From assembly GCA_902635985.1 (NCBI GenBank), contig CACPPZ010000010.1, positions 1 through 45,310 on the forward strand: a stretch of DNA of 45,310 nt. Reading direction: 5' to 3'. How positions within the stretch are numbered: the first letter of the stretch is position 1; every line of letters starts with the position of its first letter. This stretch comes from Paracoccaceae bacterium (GTDB taxonomy: Bacteria; Pseudomonadota; Alphaproteobacteria; Rhodobacterales; Rhodobacteraceae). Below, piece by piece: positions 35,770 to 45,310 of the stretch. The notes beneath the pieces are model-generated. The model was not told where the DNA came from. It worked only from the letters and a program-made list of their open reading frames with translations, and did not search any database. Made by a program: the position numbers and the translations under genes.

Positions 35770-36120
35770 TCAATGACTTATCATCCAAGATCTTTTTGTA
35801 GGGAACGTTTTACTTCCATCTGGCAGATGCATTGTTTTAGATTTTTTATTACCCGAGCTACAGCATGAACAATTTGGACCGTGAGTAACAGCTTTATTAT
35901 TATTTTTGTTCGACACTATATTCGGCTCATTCGCGCTTTTTTCGTTTATACTATGTGCTTTTTTTCTCGCATCGCTTAATGAATACAGCACTGGGGTAGC
36001 GAGGGCCCTTTCAGAAAGGCCCCCGCACTTTTGGCATGCACAGGCCTCACCCGCCCGTGACATAGATTGTAAACTAGTGAAAGTGCCACAATTTTTGCAA
36101 TTATATTCATAAAATGGCAT
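35770..36120 (-). CDS. fmdB: FmdB-family zinc-ribbon protein
   Basis: A 116-residue protein with the FmdB start MPFYEYNCKNCG and two CxxC knuckles (C8/C11 and C29/C32), forming a small zinc ribbon. A Ser/Asn/Lys-rich tail with a further Cys cluster (NCSCCSSG) follows. In Methylophilus methylotrophus, fmdB lies beside the formamidase gene and was proposed to regulate it. Here it lies 19 bases downstream of fmdA on the same strand, so the pair is almost certainly one operon. Biochemical function of the family is not settled. Confidence 0.9.
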   Translation of the reverse strand: MPFYEYNCKNCGTFTSLQSMSRAGEACACQKCGGLSERALATPVLYSLSDARKKAHSINEKSANEPNIVSNKNNNKAVTHGPNCSCCSSGNKKSKTMHLPDGSKTFPTKRSWMISH

Positions 36121-36139
36121 GGAGGAAAGTCCTACTAAT

Positions 36140-37369
36140 TTACAAATCTGGTGCTACACATACTGCCCCTGCGCTCAAGTCCTGTTTTTTTGGCCCATTT
36201 GCGTTCGGCGAAATATCGAAGTCAAAAATTTGCGTAGGTAGCCACAAAGTCGCACATGCGTTAGGGATGTCTACGACCCCGCTTATATGTCCTTGACAAG
36301 GTGCTGTACCTAAAATTGCATATGCCTGGGCGCCAGAGTACCCAAATTTTTTCAAGTACTCGATCGCATTGAGACAAGCCTGTCTATAAGCTATATGGAC
36401 ATCTAAATAATGCTGCTCTCCCGCTTCATCAACGGAAATTCCCTCGAATATAAGATGATCGTTATAAGCGGGAGTTATCGGGCTAGGTTTGAATATTGGA
36501 TTTTTAATTCCATATTTCGCCATACCATCTTTAATAACATTGGCCCTCATATGTATCCATCCAGCCATCTCAATAGCCCCACAGAAAGTAATTTCTCCAT
36601 CGCCTTGACTGAAATGCAAATCACCAACAGAAAGGCCTCCACCATCAACATATACAGGGAAATATACCTTACTGCCTCTGGATAAATCTTTTATGTCGCA
36701 ATTTCCGCCATGCTCTCTTGGAGGCACGGTTCTCGCACCTTCAGCTGCGGCAGCGTCTCTTTCGTCTCCCTTCATACGTCCCATGTGCGCACAGTATTCA
36801 TTAGGTAAGGCTGCGAGCGGTGGTGTCCTTTCTGGATCAGTATTGAAAAGCTTTTCTTCTCTGGTATTCCACTTATTTAGTTCATCGCGAGATGGTAAAC
36901 AGCCGATCAAACCAGGATGAATTAGGCCCGCAAAATTTACTCCAGGAACGTGACGGGAGCGCGTAAACATACCTTCAATATCCCAAATTGATTTGTGTGC
37001 ATCAGGGAAGTGTTCGGTTAAAAATCCTCCTCCATTATTTCTAGAAAAGAAACCATTGAAGCCCCACAAGTTATTTTGGAAAGCACCAATATCTAAAATA
37101 TCAACTTCAAGCAAATCTCCTGGTTTTGCGCCATTTACACCTATTGGACCACTTAAGAAATGAACTTGTTCGAGAATAACATCTCTTACATCGGCTGCGC
37201 TGTCGTCATTTTTTATTTGACCACCAGTCCAATCCATACATTCTACTATAAAATCCTCTCCAGGGTTAACAGTGGCCACTATGGGAATATCAGGGTGCCA
37301 TCTATTATGAATATTGTCGTGTTCATAAGGTGATTTGTCTAAATCTATTTTGATTATTGTATCGGCCAT
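36140..37369 (-). CDS. fmdA: Formamidase (FmdA/AmdA acetamidase family)
   Basis: Hydrolyses formamide to formate and ammonium, giving nitrogen and a C1 unit. Related enzymes also take acetamide. The 409 residues are full length and match the FmdA type throughout: WHPDIPIVATVNPGEDFIVE, GPIGVNGAKPGDLLEVDI, PREHGGNCDIKDLSRGSKVYFPVYV and DLHFSQGDGEITFCGAIEMAGW. There is no signal peptide. GGGGAG lies just upstream of the ATG. The 344-base upstream region carries an element shared with the importer control region. Confidence 0.95.
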   Translation of the reverse strand: MADTIIKIDLDKSPYEHDNIHNRWHPDIPIVATVNPGEDFIVECMDWTGGQIKNDDSAADVRDVILEQVHFLSGPIGVNGAKPGDLLEVDILDIGAFQNNLWGFNGFFSRNNGGGFLTEHFPDAHKSIWDIEGMFTRSRHVPGVNFAGLIHPGLIGCLPSRDELNKWNTREEKLFNTDPERTPPLAALPNEYCAHMGRMKGDERDAAAAEGARTVPPREHGGNCDIKDLSRGSKVYFPVYVDGGGLSVGDLHFSQGDGEITFCGAIEMAGWIHMRANVIKDGMAKYGIKNPIFKPSPITPAYNDHLIFEGISVDEAGEQHYLDVHIAYRQACLNAIEYLKKFGYSGAQAYAILGTAPCQGHISGVVDIPNACATLWLPTQIFDFDISPNANGPKKQDLSAGAVCVAPDL

Positions 37370-37713
37370 TTAATGTCTCCCCAAATTAATTAAAAATTTT
37401 TAAATTTCTAATTATTTTACTGCCTAATTTTTCCTTAGTACTTTATCAAACTTCAGGCTTGATTGTTCCATTTGTCGCAAGGCAATAAATATCTCTGGAA
37501 GAGTTCATTAGTATTTTGAAAAATACTTAAAGAGATAACCAATGACCTCGCGCGGAACGATTATCAAGTGATTTTAAATTACGTGCTTCGATAGCGTAAG
37601 CGCTATACGTCATTTAACTTATCTCTCTAAATATCTGATAATAAACAACTTTAAATGTTATAATATAACCTAAAAATTTACTTGCTTGTATTTCCATCAA
37701 TTATTTTATTTTT
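37370..37713. other. Control region upstream of fmdA
   Basis: This 344-base stretch lies between fmdA and the response-regulator gene (both leftward) and contains no gene. It should hold the fmdA promoter. About 235 bases upstream of the fmdA ATG it has ATACGTCATTTAAC (37605-37618), shared with the importer region, overlapping a hairpin-forming dyad ATAGCG/CGCTAT (37591-37606). On the fmdA strand a weak TTGATA-17-TAGGCA pair can be seen near the coding end; its weakness would fit activator dependence. Confidence 0.65.
37591..37618 (-). promoter_or_regulatory. Candidate response-regulator site upstream of fmdA
   Basis: Read toward fmdA, the sequence is GTTAAATGACGTAT followed by AGCGCTTACGCTATC. 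The 11-mer AAATGACGTAT occurs identically upstream of the importer gene, in the same orientation relative to its target, and GTTAA(A/T)TGACGTAT is shared with the second importer half-site. A looser second half (TTACGCTAT) lies about 14-15 bases on, mirroring the two-site spacing at the importer. Binding by the adjacent LuxR-type regulator is inferred. Confidence 0.55.
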
Positions 37714-38628
37714 TTATAAAATATTCATGGCCATAGCTGCTGCAGAAGTTCGGTTTTCTACGCCAAGTTTTCTGTGTATATGTTCTAAGTGTTTATTTAT
37801 AGTGCGAGGGCTTAAATCAAGAATAGTCCCGATATCTCTGTTTGACTTACCATTTGTTATCCAGGATAGTACCTCTGCTTCACGAGAAGTAAGGCCAAAA
37901 GCGTTAGACAATTTTTTGAGATTTTTCTCGAAGCTTTCCTCGATAATCCTTATTAAATGTCCATTAGAGTCAGTTCTGCCAATATATGAAAATCGGACTG
38001 TAAAATTGTCAGTATCACATACTTTTAATTGACGAAGGCCAGTATAATCACCTTCTCTAACTTTTTTTACCCATTTTTTTAATTTTAGTTCGAAATCGAA
38101 ATCATCCATGTGCTCGATTGCTTTTACAGAGCTCATTATTTTATACGCCTGTGGAGTAGACCATAGTATTAATCCATCATCTGATATTTCCGTCAAAAAT
38201 CGCTGAGAAAAATCCATTGCTTGATATGCTTGCTTAGTATGTTGAGAAACTTGGAAATGTGTGTCGATCCTTGCCAGAAGTTCTTTTGTGTCGATTGGTT
38301 TCACTAAATAATCTACGCCGCCTGCCTGCAGGCCTTTGACAATATTTTCCGACTCGCTCAATCCCGTCATAAAAATTATTGGGACATGTTTAAGGCTAGA
38401 ATTCTTTTTCAAAAGCCTGCACGTCTCAAACCCACCTATGCCTGGCATTATCGCATCTAATAAAATTACATCGGGAATAACTTCATCAATGATCTCCAGA
38501 GCCTTTTCTCCAGTCATTGCGATCAAAACATTTGCACCCGACGGTTCGATTGCTTCTGCTAAAAACTTTAATGTATCGGTAGAATCATCAACAATTAATA
38601 TATTACCTTCTAAACTATTTGGTGTCAT
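37714..38628 (-). CDS. Two-component response regulator with LuxR-type output domain
   Basis: DNA-binding partner of the adjacent sensor kinase. From the ATG at 38628 (GGAG six bases upstream) it has 304 residues; an upstream in-frame ATG at 38670 lies deep within the kinase gene and is less likely. The receiver (about 8-125) has D14/D15, phospho-acceptor D58, T88 and K110. A middle region (about 130-240; FLTEISDDGLILWSTPQAYKIM) resembles a PAS-like fold. The C-terminal HTH (about 244-304) shows LTSREAEVLSWITNGKSNRDIG and LSPRTINKHLEHIHRKLGVENR. It overlaps the kinase stop by 14 bases, so the two proteins are translationally coupled. Confidence 0.92.
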   Translation of the reverse strand: MTPNSLEGNILIVDDSTDTLKFLAEAIEPSGANVLIAMTGEKALEIIDEVIPDVILLDAIMPGIGGFETCRLLKKNSSLKHVPIIFMTGLSESENIVKGLQAGGVDYLVKPIDTKELLARIDTHFQVSQHTKQAYQAMDFSQRFLTEISDDGLILWSTPQAYKIMSSVKAIEHMDDFDFELKLKKWVKKVREGDYTGLRQLKVCDTDNFTVRFSYIGRTDSNGHLIRIIEESFEKNLKKLSNAFGLTSREAEVLSWITNGKSNRDIGTILDLSPRTINKHLEHIHRKLGVENRTSAAAMAMNIL

Positions 38629-41600
38629 TACGAGCTCCATTCTCAGAAAGAATTGTTTCAAAGTTTTCAAGATTGAAGTTTTTTAATTCTTGCTCGAGCC
38701 TATCAATTATGGGGTAAGTTGTTTGGTTTTTATTTTTAAGTTCGTTAAGGCGTGTTTGAAGCGCTCGAATGTTACCAGAGCGAGCGGATTTCATTAAACT
38801 GTTAAAGATCTCCCGGGGAATAGCTTTGTCATAGGTTTGGTTATTTTTTTTGGAATTTAAGGCAACGAAAGTACTATCTAAGTTCTGAAATTTCCATTTT
38901 ATACTAAGTACTTTTTGTATTGAGTTTAGTAAGTCGGAGTGCAAAAATGGCTTCATTAAATAGCTATCAAAAGGTCTTTCGATTAATTTAGGGTCTATAT
39001 CCTCCTCTGAATTTGCGGACAGCATAATTATTTTAGTTTTTTCACCGTATTTCGCTCTCAGTAATGATGCCAGCTCAATACCGTCTATTTCTGGCATAGA
39101 AATATCAAGAATAAAAAGGTCCACGAGATATTTTTCAGTTAGATTAATGCACTCTTTAGCACTCTTTGCGGTTTTCACATTAAAATCCAATGGATTTAAT
39201 ATATCATATAATAACTTGCAGTGGTCTTCATCATCGTCAGTCACAATAATATTTAACTTTCTCCCCAAATAACCTGTGATTTTGGTGAGCGTATTATCGA
39301 TATTTGTGATAACATTAGTGAAAGTGTTTAATACCGGGATTTCAACAGTAAATATGGTTCCAACGCCCACTTCACTTTCTACTAACATGGTTCCGTCCAT
39401 TCTTTCGACCAAAAGTTTTGAAATGGATAGGCCAAGCCCGGTGCCAATTACGTCATCTTTGGTCTTGTCTGATTTAATTCTATTAAAGGGTATGAATAAT
39501 TTTTTGATATTCTCAGCAGATATTCCAATGCCGGTGTCTTCAACGCAGAATTTTAGATTGCTTTGTTCAAAACTAGCTGTAACTTTTATACTGCCTTTGG
39601 GTGTATACTTGAATGCATTTGATAAAATATTCAAATAAATTTGGCGTAATCTTTTTTCGTCGGCCACTATTATTTCAGGAAGTGGATCTTTTATTAAAAA
39701 GATAAAATTTAATTTGTTTGAAACTACTTCTAATTTAAACATCTGTGCGATGTCATCTAAAAAATCTTTCAAGTTTATTGAATTGTTTTCTGGAATAAAT
39801 TTTCCAGTTTCAATTTGCGAAATGTCAAGTAAATCTTTTATCAAATCTGCTAAATGCTCGGATCCCTTCCGTATAACTTGAACAGCATCGGAACGGTTCT
39901 TTGGAATATTTTCATCAGTTTCTAAAATTTGAGAATAGCCAAGAATGGTATTTAAGGGAGTTCTGAATTCATGGCTTATCCCGATGAGAAACTTACTTTT
40001 TTCTTGGCTTGCAGACTCCGCTATCTCTTTTGCTCTCTGCAGCTTTTTGTCTGTTTCGGTGTGAGCAGCTATTTCTTCATATAGTCGAAATGTTTGTCGA
40101 GAACTTTCCTCTTGAGCGACCTTTGTACTTTCTCGCGCTAGAACAAATAGCCACGACGCCACTGCACTGATTATTAGCATTATAAAAAAAGTATCCCAGA
40201 GCATTTCGGATAGATAGGCCTTTGGAGTGTTAGGGTCGGTGATGCTTTCCAAATAAATTAACCCCAGAACGGAGGCAATTATTGCGGAGACGACAACTTG
40301 AATTCCTATATAACTGGCAATTATTGGATTAAGGTGTCGTGTAAGTTTTTTGGGAAGTAAAGTCAGAAGAAATCCGGATATTTGATCAACATATCGTGCA
40401 TTTGTTTTGCAAGAATCATGGCACCTAGCATCTAATGAACAACAAAGAGAACAAATTGGGGCTTCATAAATTGGGCAACTTGCCATGTCTTCAGATTCAT
40501 AAGTGCCTTCGCATATGCAGCATTTTAATTCACTAAGTTTAGCTATTTTCGCGGATGGAGTGCGTGCGATATAATACTTACCACCAGTCAAAAATGCTAT
40601 TATTGGAGCAGATACGAATGAAACAGCAAGAGCCACAAAAGAGCATAGTGCAGTCATTATTTCTCCGAATAACCCTGCGTAAGAAATACCTGCGGCAATT
40701 ACAGCTAATATTACAGAGCCAACGCCCACTGGATTAATGTCATAAAGGTATGCGCGCCTAAACTCTATATGCTTTGGGCTGAATTTCAGTGGTTTGTTTA
40801 TTACTAGGTCTGAGGCTAGAGCACCTACCCAAGCAACTGCAATAATAGAGTAGAGTGCTAGTATTTTCTCCAAGGCGTGATAGGCACCTAAAGTTATTAG
40901 AAGAAAACCAATCCCGACGTTAAAAATTAGCCAAACCACTCTACCAGGGTGGCTGTGAGTCAGACGTGAAAAGAAGTTAGACCAAGCAATAGATCCGGCA
41001 TATGCATTTGTTACATTGATTTTTATCTGTGAGATGATAACGAATACTGCCGTAACTAACGCTGCAACCCAGGATGAGGCAAAAACAAAATTAAAGGCCG
41101 TGTTGTACATATAGGATGGGTCAGTGGCAATTTCGACAGGAACAAAAATTTTTAAACAGACAAAAAGTAAAAATGAGCCTAAAAAGATTTTTATTCCTCC
41201 AACTACCATCCAGCCTGGACCAGCACTCAGAAGAGAAATCCACCATGCTTTTGCGTTTTCTTTTGTTTTCGGCTGTAAAAAACGCAGAAAGTCAACTTGC
41301 TCTCCGATCTGGGCTGATAATGAAAAAATTACTGCTGAAGCTGCGCCAAATAAAAGAATGTCAAATTCACCATTTAAACCACCAAGTTTACCAGTATATC
41401 CTGTCCACTCATCAAATAAATAAGAGTGATTTGCGACAATAAATATAAAAGGAAGTGCATGAAGTATTAGCCAAATAGGTTGGGTCCAAACCTGAAGCCG
41501 ATTTATATAAGTAAATCCATTTATAACAATCGGAATGACTACAAGTGAACTTAATAGATAACCAAAAAAAAGCGGAATATTAAAAAATATCTCTAGAGCC

Positions 41601-42013
41601 TTAGCCATAATTGCCGCTTCGAGCGCAAAAAATATAAATGTGAATGACGCATAAATTAGCGATGTTAAGGTTGAACCAATGTAGCCAAACCCAGCACCTC
41701 TCGATAGTAGATCAATATCAACTCCGTACTTTGCTGCATAATAGCTGATTGGAAGGCTCGTAAAAAATATTAGAATACCCACCGCAACGATAGCAGCAGC
41801 AGCATTTGTAAAACCGTAGTTGTAAGTTATTGTGGCACCAATAGCCTCTAGTGCAAGGAATGAGATTGCTCCCAGTGCTGTATTCGCGACCGAAAATGGC
41901 GACCACTTTCGAGCACTTTTGGCCGTGAACCGTAGAGAAAAATCTTCCATAGTTTGGTTTGCCACCCAAACATTGTAATTCCGTCTCACTCTAACTATTT
42001 TCTGAGGAATCAT
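38615..42013 (-). CDS. Hybrid sensor histidine kinase with an NCS1-type permease input domain
   Basis: A 1132-residue membrane sensor. Residues about 30-480 form a permease-like domain with roughly twelve transmembrane helices resembling the NCS1 cytosine/purine/allantoin family (WSPFSVANTALGAISFLALEAIGA). Next comes a linker with nine cysteines (C498, C499, C501, C513, C521, C524, C525, C531, C535) and one His, probably metal-binding, then two more membrane helices (about 565-588, 606-626) and a coiled coil. The kinase core has H681 (SHEFRTPLN), N799 (NILSNAFKYT), DTGIG (826-830) and GTGLGLS (857-863). A receiver follows with D970 in LFILDISMPE, then a helical tail. This parallels CrbS, in which an SLC5 transporter is fused to a kinase. 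Probable ligand: an amide, urea or nucleobase-derived compound, inferred from neighbours. An internal ATG at codon 22 is an alternative start. Confidence 0.92.
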   Translation of the reverse strand: MIPQKIVRVRRNYNVWVANQTMEDFSLRFTAKSARKWSPFSVANTALGAISFLALEAIGATITYNYGFTNAAAAIVAVGILIFFTSLPISYYAAKYGVDIDLLSRGAGFGYIGSTLTSLIYASFTFIFFALEAAIMAKALEIFFNIPLFFGYLLSSLVVIPIVINGFTYINRLQVWTQPIWLILHALPFIFIVANHSYLFDEWTGYTGKLGGLNGEFDILLFGAASAVIFSLSAQIGEQVDFLRFLQPKTKENAKAWWISLLSAGPGWMVVGGIKIFLGSFLLFVCLKIFVPVEIATDPSYMYNTAFNFVFASSWVAALVTAVFVIISQIKINVTNAYAGSIAWSNFFSRLTHSHPGRVVWLIFNVGIGFLLITLGAYHALEKILALYSIIAVAWVGALASDLVINKPLKFSPKHIEFRRAYLYDINPVGVGSVILAVIAAGISYAGLFGEIMTALCSFVALAVSFVSAPIIAFLTGGKYYIARTPSAKIAKLSELKCCICEGTYESEDMASCPIYEAPICSLCCSLDARCHDSCKTNARYVDQISGFLLTLLPKKLTRHLNPIIASYIGIQVVVSAIIASVLGLIYLESITDPNTPKAYLSEMLWDTFFIMLIISAVASWLFVLARESTKVAQEESSRQTFRLYEEIAAHTETDKKLQRAKEIAESASQEKSKFLIGISHEFRTPLNTILGYSQILETDENIPKNRSDAVQVIRKGSEHLADLIKDLLDISQIETGKFIPENNSINLKDFLDDIAQMFKLEVVSNKLNFIFLIKDPLPEIIVADEKRLRQIYLNILSNAFKYTPKGSIKVTASFEQSNLKFCVEDTGIGISAENIKKLFIPFNRIKSDKTKDDVIGTGLGLSISKLLVERMDGTMLVESEVGVGTIFTVEIPVLNTFTNVITNIDNTLTKITGYLGRKLNIIVTDDDEDHCKLLYDILNPLDFNVKTAKSAKECINLTEKYLVDLFILDISMPEIDGIELASLLRAKYGEKTKIIMLSANSEEDIDPKLIERPFDSYLMKPFLHSDLLNSIQKVLSIKWKFQNLDSTFVALNSKKNNQTYDKAIPREIFNSLMKSARSGNIRALQTRLNELKNKNQTTYPIIDRLEQELKNFNLENFETILSENGARNDTK

Positions 42014-42410
42014 TTATTTAATATTCCAGCTAATGGCCTTTCAAGAATAATTATGAAAAGAGTTGGCTTGTTTTGCGGGTTTTATGCCCTTTTTATTTAT
42101 AATGTTTATTCATATCTTAATTAATCTTCAGCTAGGTTTAATTTGAGGTCCCAGCTTACTCTTAACTCGGCAACTTTTCCGAGATGTAAATGATGATATC
42201 TTTATAGCATTATCCATTTTTAATATGCCTACGTCAAATGACGTATCGTTAATTGACGTATCCCGAGCATTTAACTTTCATGATATTTTTTTATTAGTAG
42301 CCCAGGTCTTTGGAGATTTTTGGATTATTCCCGTTAAATTAATCCACCCCTATATTTTCTCCATGGACCTGCGTGCCTACTGAGACACTAACTCTTGGGA
42401 GGAGTGAAAC
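42014..42410. other. Divergent control region between the sensor kinase and the amide/urea importer
   Basis: This 397-base stretch has no gene. It must hold the promoter of the sensor/regulator pair (leftward) and of urtA (rightward). A double element centred at 42230-42261 lies 149 bases upstream of the urtA ATG and 217 bases upstream of the kinase ATG. A TATATT at 42351-42356 could be the -10 of urtA and has no good -35, as expected for an activated promoter. GGGAGGAG lies directly before the urtA ATG. Confidence 0.65.
42230..42261 (+). promoter_or_regulatory. Candidate response-regulator double site upstream of urtA
   Basis: A perfect palindrome TACGTCA-AA-TGACGTA (42230-42245) is followed by a further direct copy in GTTAATTGACGTAT (42248-42261). 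The two TGACGTA copies start 15 bases apart, about one and a half helical turns. AAATGACGTAT (42236-42246) is identical to the element upstream of fmdA. Such spaced heptamers suit a dimeric LuxR/NarL/FixJ-type regulator. The position between the divergent genes would allow autoregulation of the sensor pair. Confidence 0.6.
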
Positions 42411-43658
42411 ATGAAGAAACTTTTTAGACGGGGGGTTGTATTTAGCCTAGCCGTGATACCAGCGTTAGCCGCGTTGAATGCCACTGCTTGGGCTAATTCA
42501 CATCTCGAAAAATGGCCAACATCCAAGGTAAATACCACGGGATTGGCTGTTACAGATGATACCGTAACAATTGGAATCTTGCATTCCATCACGGGTTCTA
42601 TGGCAATTAGTGAGTCCGGTTCGGTCCAAGCTGAAAAGCTGGCTATAAAGCAAATTAATGACGCTGGCGGGGTTTTGGGTAGAAAGATCGAGTGGATTCA
42701 GGAAGATGGAGCAACTGATTGGCCAAACTTTGCAGAAAAAGCTAAAAAATTAATAGTAAATGACAAAGTGGCCGCTGTAATGGGTTGTTGGACTTCAGCA
42801 TCAAGAAAAGCTGTTTTGCCCGTTTTTGAACAGTATAACAACATGCTATACTACCCGACAATGTACGAAGGGCTAGAGGCATCAAGAAATGTTGTATACA
42901 CTGGTCAAGAAGCAACTCAGCAGATTTTAGCTGGAATTGACTGGGTTGTTGCGGAGAAAAAGCCAAAAACTTTTTACTTTGTTGGTTCTGACTATATCTG
43001 GCCTAGAACCTCATTCAAGATTGCAAGGAAGCACATCGAAAACGTTTACAATCTCAAGGTTATCGGTGAACAGTATTATCCTTTAGGTCATACGCAGTTT
43101 AACTCTGTTATAAACAAGATGAAGCTGAAAAAGCCAGACGTGATATTCTCAATAGTTGTTGGGGGTTCAAACGTTGCATTCTACAAGCAAATGACGGGTG
43201 CTGGTGTTGATTTAACAAAACAAACTGTGATCACCATCTCAGCAACTGAAGATGAGGTTCGTGGTATAGGTGGCGAGAACATTCACGGTACTTACATGTT
43301 TGCCAAATATTTCCAAAGTTTAGATAATCCTAACAACAAAAAATTTGTTGAGGAGTTCAAGGAAATGTGGGGAGACGATATCGTAATAGGCGATGTTACA
43401 AATAACGCTTACCTTGGTCCATGGTTATGGAAAATGGCAGTAGAGAAAGCTGGCAGCTTTGATATTGACAGGATTAAGGAAGTTAATCCTGGAATAGAAA
43501 TGGCTAATGCGCCAGAGGGCTATGTCAGAATTCATGAAACAAACCATCACTTGTACAGCAAACTAAGAGTTGGACGTGCAAGGATGGACGGGCAGTTTGA
43601 TGTTGTCCACGAGTCTGAGTTAATGGAGCCTGATCCATTCCCAGAGGGTTACCAATAA
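42411..43658 (+). CDS. urtA: Urea/short-chain amide ABC transporter substrate-binding protein (UrtA/FmdD type)
   Basis: Periplasmic binding protein of 415 residues with a signal peptide (MKKLFRRGVVFSLAVIPALAALNATAWA, cleavage probably after AWA). The mature protein follows the UrtA/FmdD pattern: TVTIGILHSITGSMAISE, NDAGGVLGRKIEWIQEDGATDWP, MGCWTSASRKAVLPVFEQ and YYPTMYEGLEASRNVVYTG, with ATEDEVRGIG and GPWLWKMAVEKAGSFD. UrtA binds urea and its close relative FmdD binds short-chain amides and urea; sequence reading alone does not separate them. The regulatory link to formamidase favours an amide or dual specificity. A strong hairpin follows the stop codon. Confidence 0.92.
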   Translation: MKKLFRRGVVFSLAVIPALAALNATAWANSHLEKWPTSKVNTTGLAVTDDTVTIGILHSITGSMAISESGSVQAEKLAIKQINDAGGVLGRKIEWIQEDGATDWPNFAEKAKKLIVNDKVAAVMGCWTSASRKAVLPVFEQYNNMLYYPTMYEGLEASRNVVYTGQEATQQILAGIDWVVAEKKPKTFYFVGSDYIWPRTSFKIARKHIENVYNLKVIGEQYYPLGHTQFNSVINKMKLKKPDVIFSIVVGGSNVAFYKQMTGAGVDLTKQTVITISATEDEVRGIGGENIHGTYMFAKYFQSLDNPNNKKFVEEFKEMWGDDIVIGDVTNNAYLGPWLWKMAVEKAGSFDIDRIKEVNPGIEMANAPEGYVRIHETNHHLYSKLRVGRARMDGQFDVVHESELMEPDPFPEGYQ

Positions 43659-43676
43659 TCAATGTAGCTTCACTAA

Positions 43677-43706
43677 CCGGAGCAGGCACGTAAGTGCGTG
43701 CTCTGG
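43677..43706 (+). promoter_or_regulatory. Strong intercistronic hairpin between urtA and urtB
   Basis: CCGGAGCA-G-GCAC pairs with GTGC-G-TGCTCTGG around a GTAA tetraloop, with one G-G mismatch and one G-U pair. No T-run follows, so it is not a terminator. Such structures after a binding-protein gene commonly protect the 5' mRNA and let the binding protein outnumber the permease. It covers the GTG at 43694, arguing against that codon as the urtB start. Confidence 0.65.
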
Positions 43707-43774
43707 TTAACTTAGAATATCAAGATATAAAAATTACTTCTGAAAAAATCAGATCTCGAGTGGAAGGCAAGAAG

Positions 43775-44698
43775 ATGTTAGGATATACGTTTGGAGAGTT
43801 GGGATCAATTGTTGCCATGCAGGGTTTTGCTGGCTTAATTTTGTTTTCAGTTTTCGTATTGATGGGGCTTGGCCTGGCCATAATATTTGGCCAACTTGGG
43901 GTCATAAACATGGCTCATGGCGAATTTATGATGATGGGTATGTATATTACTTACATCATGCAATTACTATTTATCGAATTTGCGCCCGGGTTAATGAATA
44001 TTTATTTCTTTGTAGCCATGGCGGTCGCCTTTATATTCACTGCGATAATGGGTGGTTGTGTTGAGTTTTTAGTAGTTCGTCACCTATACAGGCGTCCGCT
44101 AGATACCCTTTTAGCCACTTGGGGTATTAGTTTGATTTTGCAGCAAAGCATTAGGGTTGTGTTCGGAACGCGCGAAGTTGGAGTTGTGAAGCCAGAGTGG
44201 ATGATGGGCTCAGTCGCAGTTACGGACATGATTGATATACAGATTTATGGCTTGGTTGTTATGGCTATAACAATCGCACTTACAATTGTAGTCATGTACT
44301 TGATGTTGCGTTCAGTTTGGGGAAAACATGTTAGAGCAGTGGTTCAGAATAGAGAGATGGCGGGAGCCGTCGGTATAAATACTGCTAGAACGGACCGTAC
44401 AACTTTTGCTGTAGGTTGCGGTATCGCGGGCATAGCTGGAAGTGCGTTTACGATGATTAGTTCAACTGCTCCAGATGCTGGTCAGCACTACATTGTGGAT
44501 ACCTTTCTAGTTGTGGTTTTCGGAGGTGCTGGCAGTTTGTTAGGTACAGTGGCATCGGCCTTCGCTATTTCTCAAACTCAGTCAACTTTGGAGTTTTTCA
44601 TCACTGGATCCATGGCAAAAGTTTGGACCCTATTAATCGTGATAGGAATTCTAATGGTTCGTCCACAAGGCTTGTTTGCCGTGAAGATTCGCCGATAG
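43775..44698 (+). CDS. urtB: Urea/amide ABC transporter permease UrtB/FmdE type
   Basis: Inner-membrane permease of the branched-chain amino-acid (LIV-H) family, 307 residues from the ATG at 43775, which has GGAAGG seven bases upstream. A longer frame from GTG at 43694 adds 27 polar residues, but that codon lies inside the intercistronic hairpin. About eight membrane helices are visible. Family landmarks are VLMGLGLAIIFGQLGVINMAHGEFMMMGMY, TLLATWGISLILQQ, RAVVQNREMAGAVGINTARTD and VVFGGAGSLLGTVASA. The permease ends MVRPQGLFAVKIRR, typical of UrtB. The large extracytoplasmic N-terminal domain of some UrtB proteins is absent. Confidence 0.93.
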   Translation: MLGYTFGELGSIVAMQGFAGLILFSVFVLMGLGLAIIFGQLGVINMAHGEFMMMGMYITYIMQLLFIEFAPGLMNIYFFVAMAVAFIFTAIMGGCVEFLVVRHLYRRPLDTLLATWGISLILQQSIRVVFGTREVGVVKPEWMMGSVAVTDMIDIQIYGLVVMAITIALTIVVMYLMLRSVWGKHVRAVVQNREMAGAVGINTARTDRTTFAVGCGIAGIAGSAFTMISSTAPDAGQHYIVDTFLVVVFGGAGSLLGTVASAFAISQTQSTLEFFITGSMAKVWTLLIVIGILMVRPQGLFAVKIRR

Positions 44699-44711
44699 GG
44701 AGGTATGCAGT

Positions 44712-45310
44712 ATGAATAAAATTCTTACAGGCGATACTAAGTATCATTTCTTGGTCTTAGCAGTTTTATTATTAGTGATATTTCCAACATTTTTAGATGT
44801 TTTTCGTCTAAATTTGGTTGGGAAGTATCTTACTTTTGCATTTGTCGCTGTCGGTCTGGTGATTTGTTGGGGAGCGGGGGGAATTTTAAGCTTGGGCCAA
44901 GGTGTGTTTTTTGGGGTTGGTGGTTATTTAATGGCTATGCACTTAAAGTTGGAAGCCGCTCAAGCAGACATTGGCTGTACCCGAGAACTTCAGGAGACAG
45001 GTGTTTGTATTGTTCAATCAACGCCTGGAATTCCAGATTTTATGGATTGGGCTTCTATGACGGAAATTCCAATTTTCTGGGGATTTTCTCACAGTCTGAT
45101 ACTCACAATAATAATGATACTAACTGTTCCGGCAATAATAGCTTTCTTTTTTGGCTACGTGATGTTCAGAAATCGGGTTGGTGGTGTTTACTTTGCAATT
45201 ATTACTCAGTCTATGGCTGCCCTACTAAGTATTCTAATAATTGGTAATGCTGGCTACATTGGTGGATTTAACGGAATTACAGATCTCCGCACCTTGAAGG
45301 GCTGGGATAT
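44712..45310 (+). CDS. urtC: Urea/amide ABC transporter permease UrtC/FmdF type, 3'-truncated by the window edge
   Basis: Second permease subunit, LIV-M family. The ATG at 44712 follows GGGAGG and lies 13 bases after urtB. The frame stays open to the end of the window, giving 199 codons of about 360-390. The translation begins MNKILTGDTKYHFLVLAVLL, and contains FAFVAVGLVICWGAGGILSLGQGVFFG, GGVYFAIITQSMAALLSILI and GGFNGITDLRTLKG, the UrtC hallmark. The ATPase genes (urtD, urtE) and possibly urease or further amidase genes would lie beyond the window. Confidence 0.92.
   Translation, partial: MNKILTGDTKYHFLVLAVLLLVIFPTFLDVFRLNLVGKYLTFAFVAVGLVICWGAGGILSLGQGVFFGVGGYLMAMHLKLEAAQADIGCTRELQETGVCIVQSTPGIPDFMDWASMTEIPIFWGFSHSLILTIIMILTVPAIIAFFFGYVMFRNRVGGVYFAIITQSMAALLSILIIGNAGYIGGFNGITDLRTLKGWD

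Follow-up and report, generated by a model that had tools for sequence, protein, structure and literature searches.

We analysed a 45,310-nucleotide stretch of DNA from a Paracoccaceae bacterium (assembly GCA_902635985.1, contig CACPPZ010000010.1, positions 1 to 45,310; hereafter the window), in which a hybrid histidine kinase with a permease-like N-terminal part lies between formamidase genes and a divergent ATP-binding cassette (ABC) importer for urea or short-chain amides. A preliminary description of the sequence had placed fmdB, fmdA, a LuxR-type regulator, the hybrid kinase and divergent urtABC genes here, and profile matches agree with these assignments:

35770..36120, minus strand: fmdB-like zinc-ribbon protein (RPWMISH family; NCBIfam NF053663, TIGR02605; Pfam PF09723)
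36140..37369, minus strand: fmdA, formamidase (NCBIfam NF045496, 747 bits, cut-off 500; formamidase structure 2wkn, E 1e-217, residues 1-396)
37714..38670, minus strand: LuxR-type response regulator (REC and GerE domains; Asp72, counted from the listed TTG start)
38615..42013, minus strand: hybrid kinase, 1132 amino acids (aa), with an NCS1 permease-like part (aa ~16-480), a cysteine cluster (aa 498-535), two helices and a C-terminal half made up of HisKA/HATPase (aa 672-894, His681) and REC (aa 922-1032, Asp970)
42411..43658, plus strand: urtA, urea/short-chain-amide binding protein of the FmdD type (TIGR03407, 511.6 bits, cut-off 492.75)
43694..44698, plus strand: urtB, permease subunit (TIGR03409, 379 bits, cut-off 250.3)
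44712..45310, plus strand: urtC, permease subunit, cut at the contig end (TIGR03408, 194.5 bits, profile positions 1-158 of 313)

The kinase is of the hybrid two-component type, its HisKA, HATPase and REC domains carrying the His and Asp residues, with the REC-GerE protein as partner. The likely true start of the regulator gene is an ATG at 38640 or 38628 that overlaps the stop of the kinase gene, so the two proteins are probably translated together. Relatives of UrtA in the Protein Data Bank (PDB) are 8tg1, 7s6e, 7s6f, 8hic and AmiC (1pea). The window ends where its contig (C10, 45310 bases) ends, and another contig of the same genome (C48) opens with the end of an urtC gene followed by urtD and urtE; no exact end overlap of 15 or more bases was found between C10 and C48, and the contigs were left unjoined. 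Behind urtE, C48 holds two short unassigned genes, then genes for a hydantoinase/carbamoylase-type amidase (TIGR01879) and a dihydropyrimidinase/hydantoinase (TIGR02033), with no fmdA at that place (L309). Measured against the common layout, in which kinase and regulator are divergent from urtABCDE-fmdA-fmdB, the placement of fmdAB behind the regulator is evidently a rearrangement in the window's genome. Base composition showed no sign of recent transfer.

Permease-like sensor domain

The N-terminal part of the kinase matched no permease family in Pfam (Transp_cyt_pur included) up to E ≤ 10, in a search whose HMMER filters drop most weak matches, and a sequence-profile search of solved structures returned nothing at E ≤ 1, so that a fold search was required. 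An AlphaFold model of kinase residues 1-660, made from an alignment of 70 rows with the window included, reached a predicted local distance difference test (pLDDT) value of 85.5 and a predicted template modelling (pTM) score of 0.86, and its top PDB matches were the NCS1 transporters CodB (E 6e-10) and Mhp1 (E 1e-9). The sensor was aligned by hhalign with ten unfused permeases over 431 columns (99.9%, E 8e-36); eight of the ten match Transp_cyt_pur (PF02133), and six of the 13 residues invariant in unfused permeases map in this alignment onto sensor invariants (G110, G113, D241, R244, N336 and Y338). From the fold search and the profile comparison, the N-terminal ~480 residues of the kinase are predicted to form an NCS1 permease fold (5+5 inverted repeat), which is the family that the preliminary description had proposed. 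An eight-cysteine pattern between the permease part and the kinase is present in 158 of the 160 rows of kinases, the exceptions being L171, a fragment of 239 residues, and L224, an unfused permease. Two other assignments were set aside: FAM210A/B, the lone Pfam match of the N-terminal part, lies below the cut-off (E 0.12) and was taken as chance, and membership of the SLC5-STAC kinases was rejected because no such Pfam match appeared up to E 10, CodB and Mhp1 outrank SLC5-type structures, and the linker contains a cysteine cluster.

The closest unfused permease found, encoded on an Acinetobacter ursingii plasmid (L243), is 44% identical, precedes a full urease operon (ureE, F, G, J, D, A, B, C) and has a four-cysteine version of the pattern at its end. 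More distant unfused permeases are encoded beside an amidase, or beside a nitrilase-type hydrolase, an AmiC-like protein and an ANTAR regulator, and one accompanies hydantoinase genes. A search of 398 genomes for relatives of the distant unfused permease L224 yielded one genome, its own.

Several variants of the kinase were seen. At L225 (7857-9713), a kinase without the permease part, in which an apparent worn remnant of the cysteine pattern survives, adjoins (by eye) an iron-type alcohol dehydrogenase-like gene and a similar LuxR-type regulator, and here the kinase chassis looks as if it has another input. L217 and L219 encode short kinases (~890 aa) close to fmdA and fmdB; a receiver is missing, as is the regulator normally found with the kinase. 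At L217 the kinase stands between an amidohydrolase, which comes before it, and a separate REC-HATPase protein, which comes after it. Urease-linked kinases near ureC (L221-L223) have a longer stretch directly before the cysteine cluster. The end of the window's kinase, aa ~1060-1132 after the receiver, is a stretch also found in relatives and has no Pfam match.

Conservation of the gene linkage

A scan of named genomes gave at least 517 relatives, and the best 80 were kept. In 75 of these 80, urtA/B, fmdA and the regulator are all within the fetched stretch; three more have urt and regulator, one urt only and one the regulator only, and of the five without fmdA all except L081 are cut by contig ends. 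A less selected set, sharing a few species with the first, comprised 76 neighbourhoods from class and phylum genome draws. Here fmdA was found in 43 and a canonical urt cluster with a long UrtB in 19 (ureC also in view in eight), while the rest had ureC and no urtA (five), urtA on cut contigs (two) or none of these (seven). The seven empty neighbourhoods consist of two short contigs (L178, L220), the unfused permease (L224), the sensor fragment (L171) and three real exceptions (L161, L162, L165). Across 398 Pseudomonadota genomes, with a threshold of E ≤ 1e-100 for FmdA and with eight of 60 first-pass kinase genomes dropped as weak or fragmentary, FmdA occurred in 40 genomes, the fused kinase in 52 and both in 39, and of 43 fmdA genes, 39 had a kinase no more than 15 kb away (40 kinase places compared). 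The linkage of the kinase to urea and amide genes, which the preliminary description had taken to be conserved, is far above chance and strongly conserved. In the sensor tree, which was built quickly and has several long branches, the surroundings change between fmdA-type and urea-type five times, at least four of the changes being forced by supported branches, and one locus (L010) carries both cluster types. Named hosts of the relatives include soil, plant-associated, marine and clinical Pseudomonadota; within the window's genus, the sensor was found in one of 16 genomes, the other 15 (53-96% complete) lacking it and two of them having a more distant UrtA (39% identical). By this distribution the system is not specific to the ocean, the setting in which the preliminary description had seen its use. 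Viral contigs yielded no relative.

Among 72,556 plasmid records, 525 matched the sensor part, a small number of these in unfused form; 342 of the 525 are from Klebsiella and 306 are typed as conjugative. One Klebsiella locus was opened, on K. pneumoniae plasmid NZ_CP073628.1 (L244), where AmiF-urtEDCBA lies beside the kinase, AmiF occupies the fmdA position and the regulator is 43% identical to that of the window. This AmiF is a CN-hydrolase-type formamidase of a fold family other than FmdA (NF009803, 601.8 bits, cut-off 406). The presence of two unrelated formamidases in one slot points to formamide, and the urease partners of relatives argue for urea. The plasmid of L244 is a conjugative one of the IncFIB/IncFII type, on which insertion sequences and the clpK/hsp20 and fec genes surround the cluster.

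A candidate operator

A 16-bp palindrome, TACGTCANNTGACGTA, precedes urtA, and often a detached fmdA, and is the candidate operator of the regulator. Three sites were located in the window:

42230..42245: TACGTCAAATGACGTA, a perfect copy of the palindrome, in the kinase-urtA gap
42245..42260: a weaker site (11 of 14) that abuts the first
37606..37621: TACGTCATTTAACTTA, resembling the operator at 12 of 14 positions and lying 237 bp ahead of the start of fmdA

Just two window sites have no more than two mismatches, those at 42230 (before urtA) and 37606 (before fmdA); shuffles of the window held a mean of 0.06 such sites and never two. The pattern was first read by eye in the window and eight kinase-urtA gaps, and was then tested on 71 kinase-urtA gaps from 95 non-redundant loci. 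The best score reached at least 12 of 14 in 30 of the 71 gaps, compared with none of 1420 shuffles, and in the 62 gaps outside the by-eye set, a score of 12 is reached by 23 and the core TACG-N8-CGTA is present in 43. This core occurs in 49 of the 71 gaps, where ten other spacings gave two matches together and a mirror control one. Within 76 loci (1.46 Mb), 59 of 66 core matches fall at most 500 bp upstream of the kinase, urtA or fmdA, against 4 of 41 for a control core. An operator copy is also found 88-138 bp upstream of fmdA in seven loci (L182, L183, L185, L186, L187, L189, L191), in four of which fmdA is more than 2 kb from urtE. The presence of one operator ahead of both urtA and fmdA speaks for joint control, and, with the conserved linkage, it favours the earlier suggestion of a dedicated sensor that joins import and hydrolysis, with the correction that the sensor is associated with urea too and not with amides alone.

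The occurrence of the operator depends on the presence of the kinase. Of 47 kinase-free genomes, 21 supplied 27 urtA-like loci, in none of which the best score exceeded 10; their UrtA is 29-39% identical, and they serve as a control that is strictest for the urea type. Scores of at least 12 were reached by 21 of 43 kinase-bearing loci with urt beside fmdA and by 6 of 17 of the urea type, and three of four kinase-bearing plasmid loci (L244, L245, L246) have a site of 12 or 13, the L244 operator matching at 13 of 14. L245 is the pSymB locus of Sinorhizobium meliloti, where kinase and regulator adjoin a urt cluster of the urea type. Orphan kinases at L161:8834 and L162:11171 keep the operator core upstream of their own gene, which suggests autoregulation.

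Proposed circuit, alternatives and known systems

We infer the ligand, the direction of control, the order of the phosphorelay and the role of the cysteines as follows. Urea or formamide, which have an N-C=O group in common, would bind from outside to the permease-like domain of the kinase, and the change would be relayed through the conserved cysteine cluster and the pair of membrane helices to the kinase. The kinase would autophosphorylate on His681 and send the signal, perhaps via its own receiver (Asp970), to the LuxR-type regulator (Asp72), which, once phosphorylated, would bind TACGTCANNTGACGTA and turn on urtABCDE (import) and fmdAB. FmdA would then convert formamide to formate and ammonia; the window's own genome also encodes a formate dehydrogenase and a urease. 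It is likely that the kinase is a receptor which derives from an NCS1 permease, responds to urea or short amides and, by way of its regulator, activates these operons. Taken part by part, we are highly confident that the circuit and operator hold, and we find it quite probable that urea or a short amide is the ligand; the reading as a whole is held a little less firmly than either part because both must hold and because hydantoinase genes were confirmed behind urtE.

To our knowledge, dedicated outside sensors for urea or formamide have rarely been described. If true, the receptor reading would show how the use of urea or formamide is decided in many bacteria of soil, plant-associated, marine and clinical origin, would extend transporter-kinase fusions to NCS1, and would name the likely regulator of the Klebsiella plasmid urt-formamidase cluster, with the conserved operator as a handle for finding the kinase's regulon. 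A broader scheme can be offered only tentatively, and we would sooner doubt than assert it: a widespread, uncharacterised class of urea/short-amide 'transceptors' may have arisen when an NCS1 permease moved out of a urease operon, retaining the four cysteines of its C-terminal tail and acquiring four more together with a kinase. A metal- or redox-binding cysteine cluster, in the position of STAC in CbrA, would now link the binding or transport of the ligand to a single operator code shared by urea and formamide genes across Pseudomonadota and their plasmids.

The same circuit might instead respond to ammonium, a hydantoin, a ureide, a nucleobase or nitrogen status, with the urea and amide genes merely as its targets. 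Solved NCS1 relatives bind cytosine and hydantoins, hydantoinase genes accompany one of the distant unfused permeases, and an Amt-kinase fusion senses ammonium according to the available part of its account (PMC5764959). Another signal nevertheless appears unlikely, since the recurring neighbours among the genes scored, a set in which other catabolic genes are not systematically represented, are urea and formamide genes, the closest unfused relative found precedes a urease operon, and AmiF can replace FmdA. It is quite improbable that the palindrome serves another regulator of the same operons while the kinase-regulator pair controls something else: some kinase loci do lack a site, yet no site above 10 of 14 was found in the 27 urtA-like loci of kinase-free genomes, and sites stand before urtA in loci kilobases from the kinase (L210, L214, L216) and in the kinase's own upstream gap at the orphan loci L161 and L162. 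That the genes simply travel jointly, by plasmids and transfer, with no regulatory connection, would fit their sporadic presence (one of 16 genomes in the genus) and many plasmid copies, but is very hard to credit beside the repeated re-association with different urea and amide clusters and the seven loci in which a separate fmdA gene has an operator copy in front of it.

Several observations weigh against the receptor reading. On the side of the ligand, the hydantoinase-type genes behind urtE on C48 (TIGR02033, TIGR01879) suit a different signal, the closest unfused permease (L243) has no Pfam match, and even the alignment columns that distinguish fmdA-type and urea-type sensors best give no binary division, with nothing clear-cut among them. 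On the side of the linkage, no urt, fmdA or ureC is in view at L161, L162, L165, L081 and L011, and the Fisher p value of 1e-41 for co-occurrence of FmdA and kinase in the 398 genomes ignores kinship. As to the operator, the core is missing from 22 of 71 gaps, several urea-type loci (e.g. L197, L202, L204, L221-L223) being without any; L168, L194, L195 and L207, with fmdA at least 1 kb from urtE, have no strong site; and a kinase-bearing Azospirillum plasmid locus (L240) shows none. At up to two mismatches, the window's own genome holds three sites compared with five for the reversed control pattern, and its sites are favoured by position and exactness only.

Fusions of a transporter domain to a kinase that regulates nutrient use are likewise found in the SLC5-STAC kinases CbrA and CrbS, as far as the available parts of the accounts go (PMC13022988, PMC7096432, PMC5715377), one of which has CbrA binding and transporting histidine (PMC13022988). 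The window kinase differs from these in its NCS1 rather than SLC5 part, the cysteine cluster in its linker, its LuxR-type regulator and its urea/amide neighbours. Ks-Amt5 similarly joins a nitrogen-nutrient transporter domain to a histidine kinase (PMC5764959, available part), but with an Amt fold and for ammonium. GrtK, presented as an ammonia sensor in the accessible portion of PMC12918730, was dropped as a counterpart because its membrane domain is PilS-like. AmiC-AmiR also provides amide-responsive control beside amide genes (PMC13209695, in part), with a sensor of another kind and an antiterminator; one distant NCS1 relative is encoded in an operon of this type.

The preliminary description had put the combination forward as the best candidate in the window for an undescribed system, which holds only in part. 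According to the accessible text of PMC10781810, fmdCABDEF of Methylophilus links a formamidase, a putative regulator and an amide/urea importer, and is induced by formamide and urea and repressed by ammonia; a permease-kinase is not mentioned in that portion. The same importer-formamidase group appears in the available parts of accounts of B. japonicum (PMC3098086), P. veronii Yu15 (PMC13209695) and E. guguanensis G3 (PMC13296017), which do not, in those parts, describe the NCS1 nature of the kinase, the operator or the urease-linked forms. The urt-fmdA cluster has thus been published before, in one case together with a kinase and a LuxR-type regulator, as the E. guguanensis account (same portion) lists a hybrid kinase and a LuxR-family regulator at a place where locus tags put fmdA beside urtABCDE. 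The Klebsiella UrtABC/AmiF cluster has been named 'UTS' and is probably the same plasmid cluster as L244, judging from the part of PMC13060141 available; the terms 'histidine kinase', 'two-component' and 'response regulator' have no occurrences in that paper's text. For the NCS1-kinase fusion and the operator, no published account was recognised in the literature searched, whose coverage leaves most subscription journals outside.

Two further places in the window's own genome were noted. The third of the genome's sites with up to two mismatches (C11:19649 = L238:7649, with one) falls in the gap that separates a formate dehydrogenase alpha gene from a Liv-type ABC importer, 278 bp upstream of the importer's binding-protein gene. 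It may be chance and is not claimed, since the control count leads us to expect about 0.25 sites of such quality by chance. The urease cluster (L097, C11:35001-44676) surrounds the urease alpha gene at 7032-8741 of L097; ahead of it lie an iolD-type gene and genes for isochorismatase-like and dimethylargininase-like proteins.

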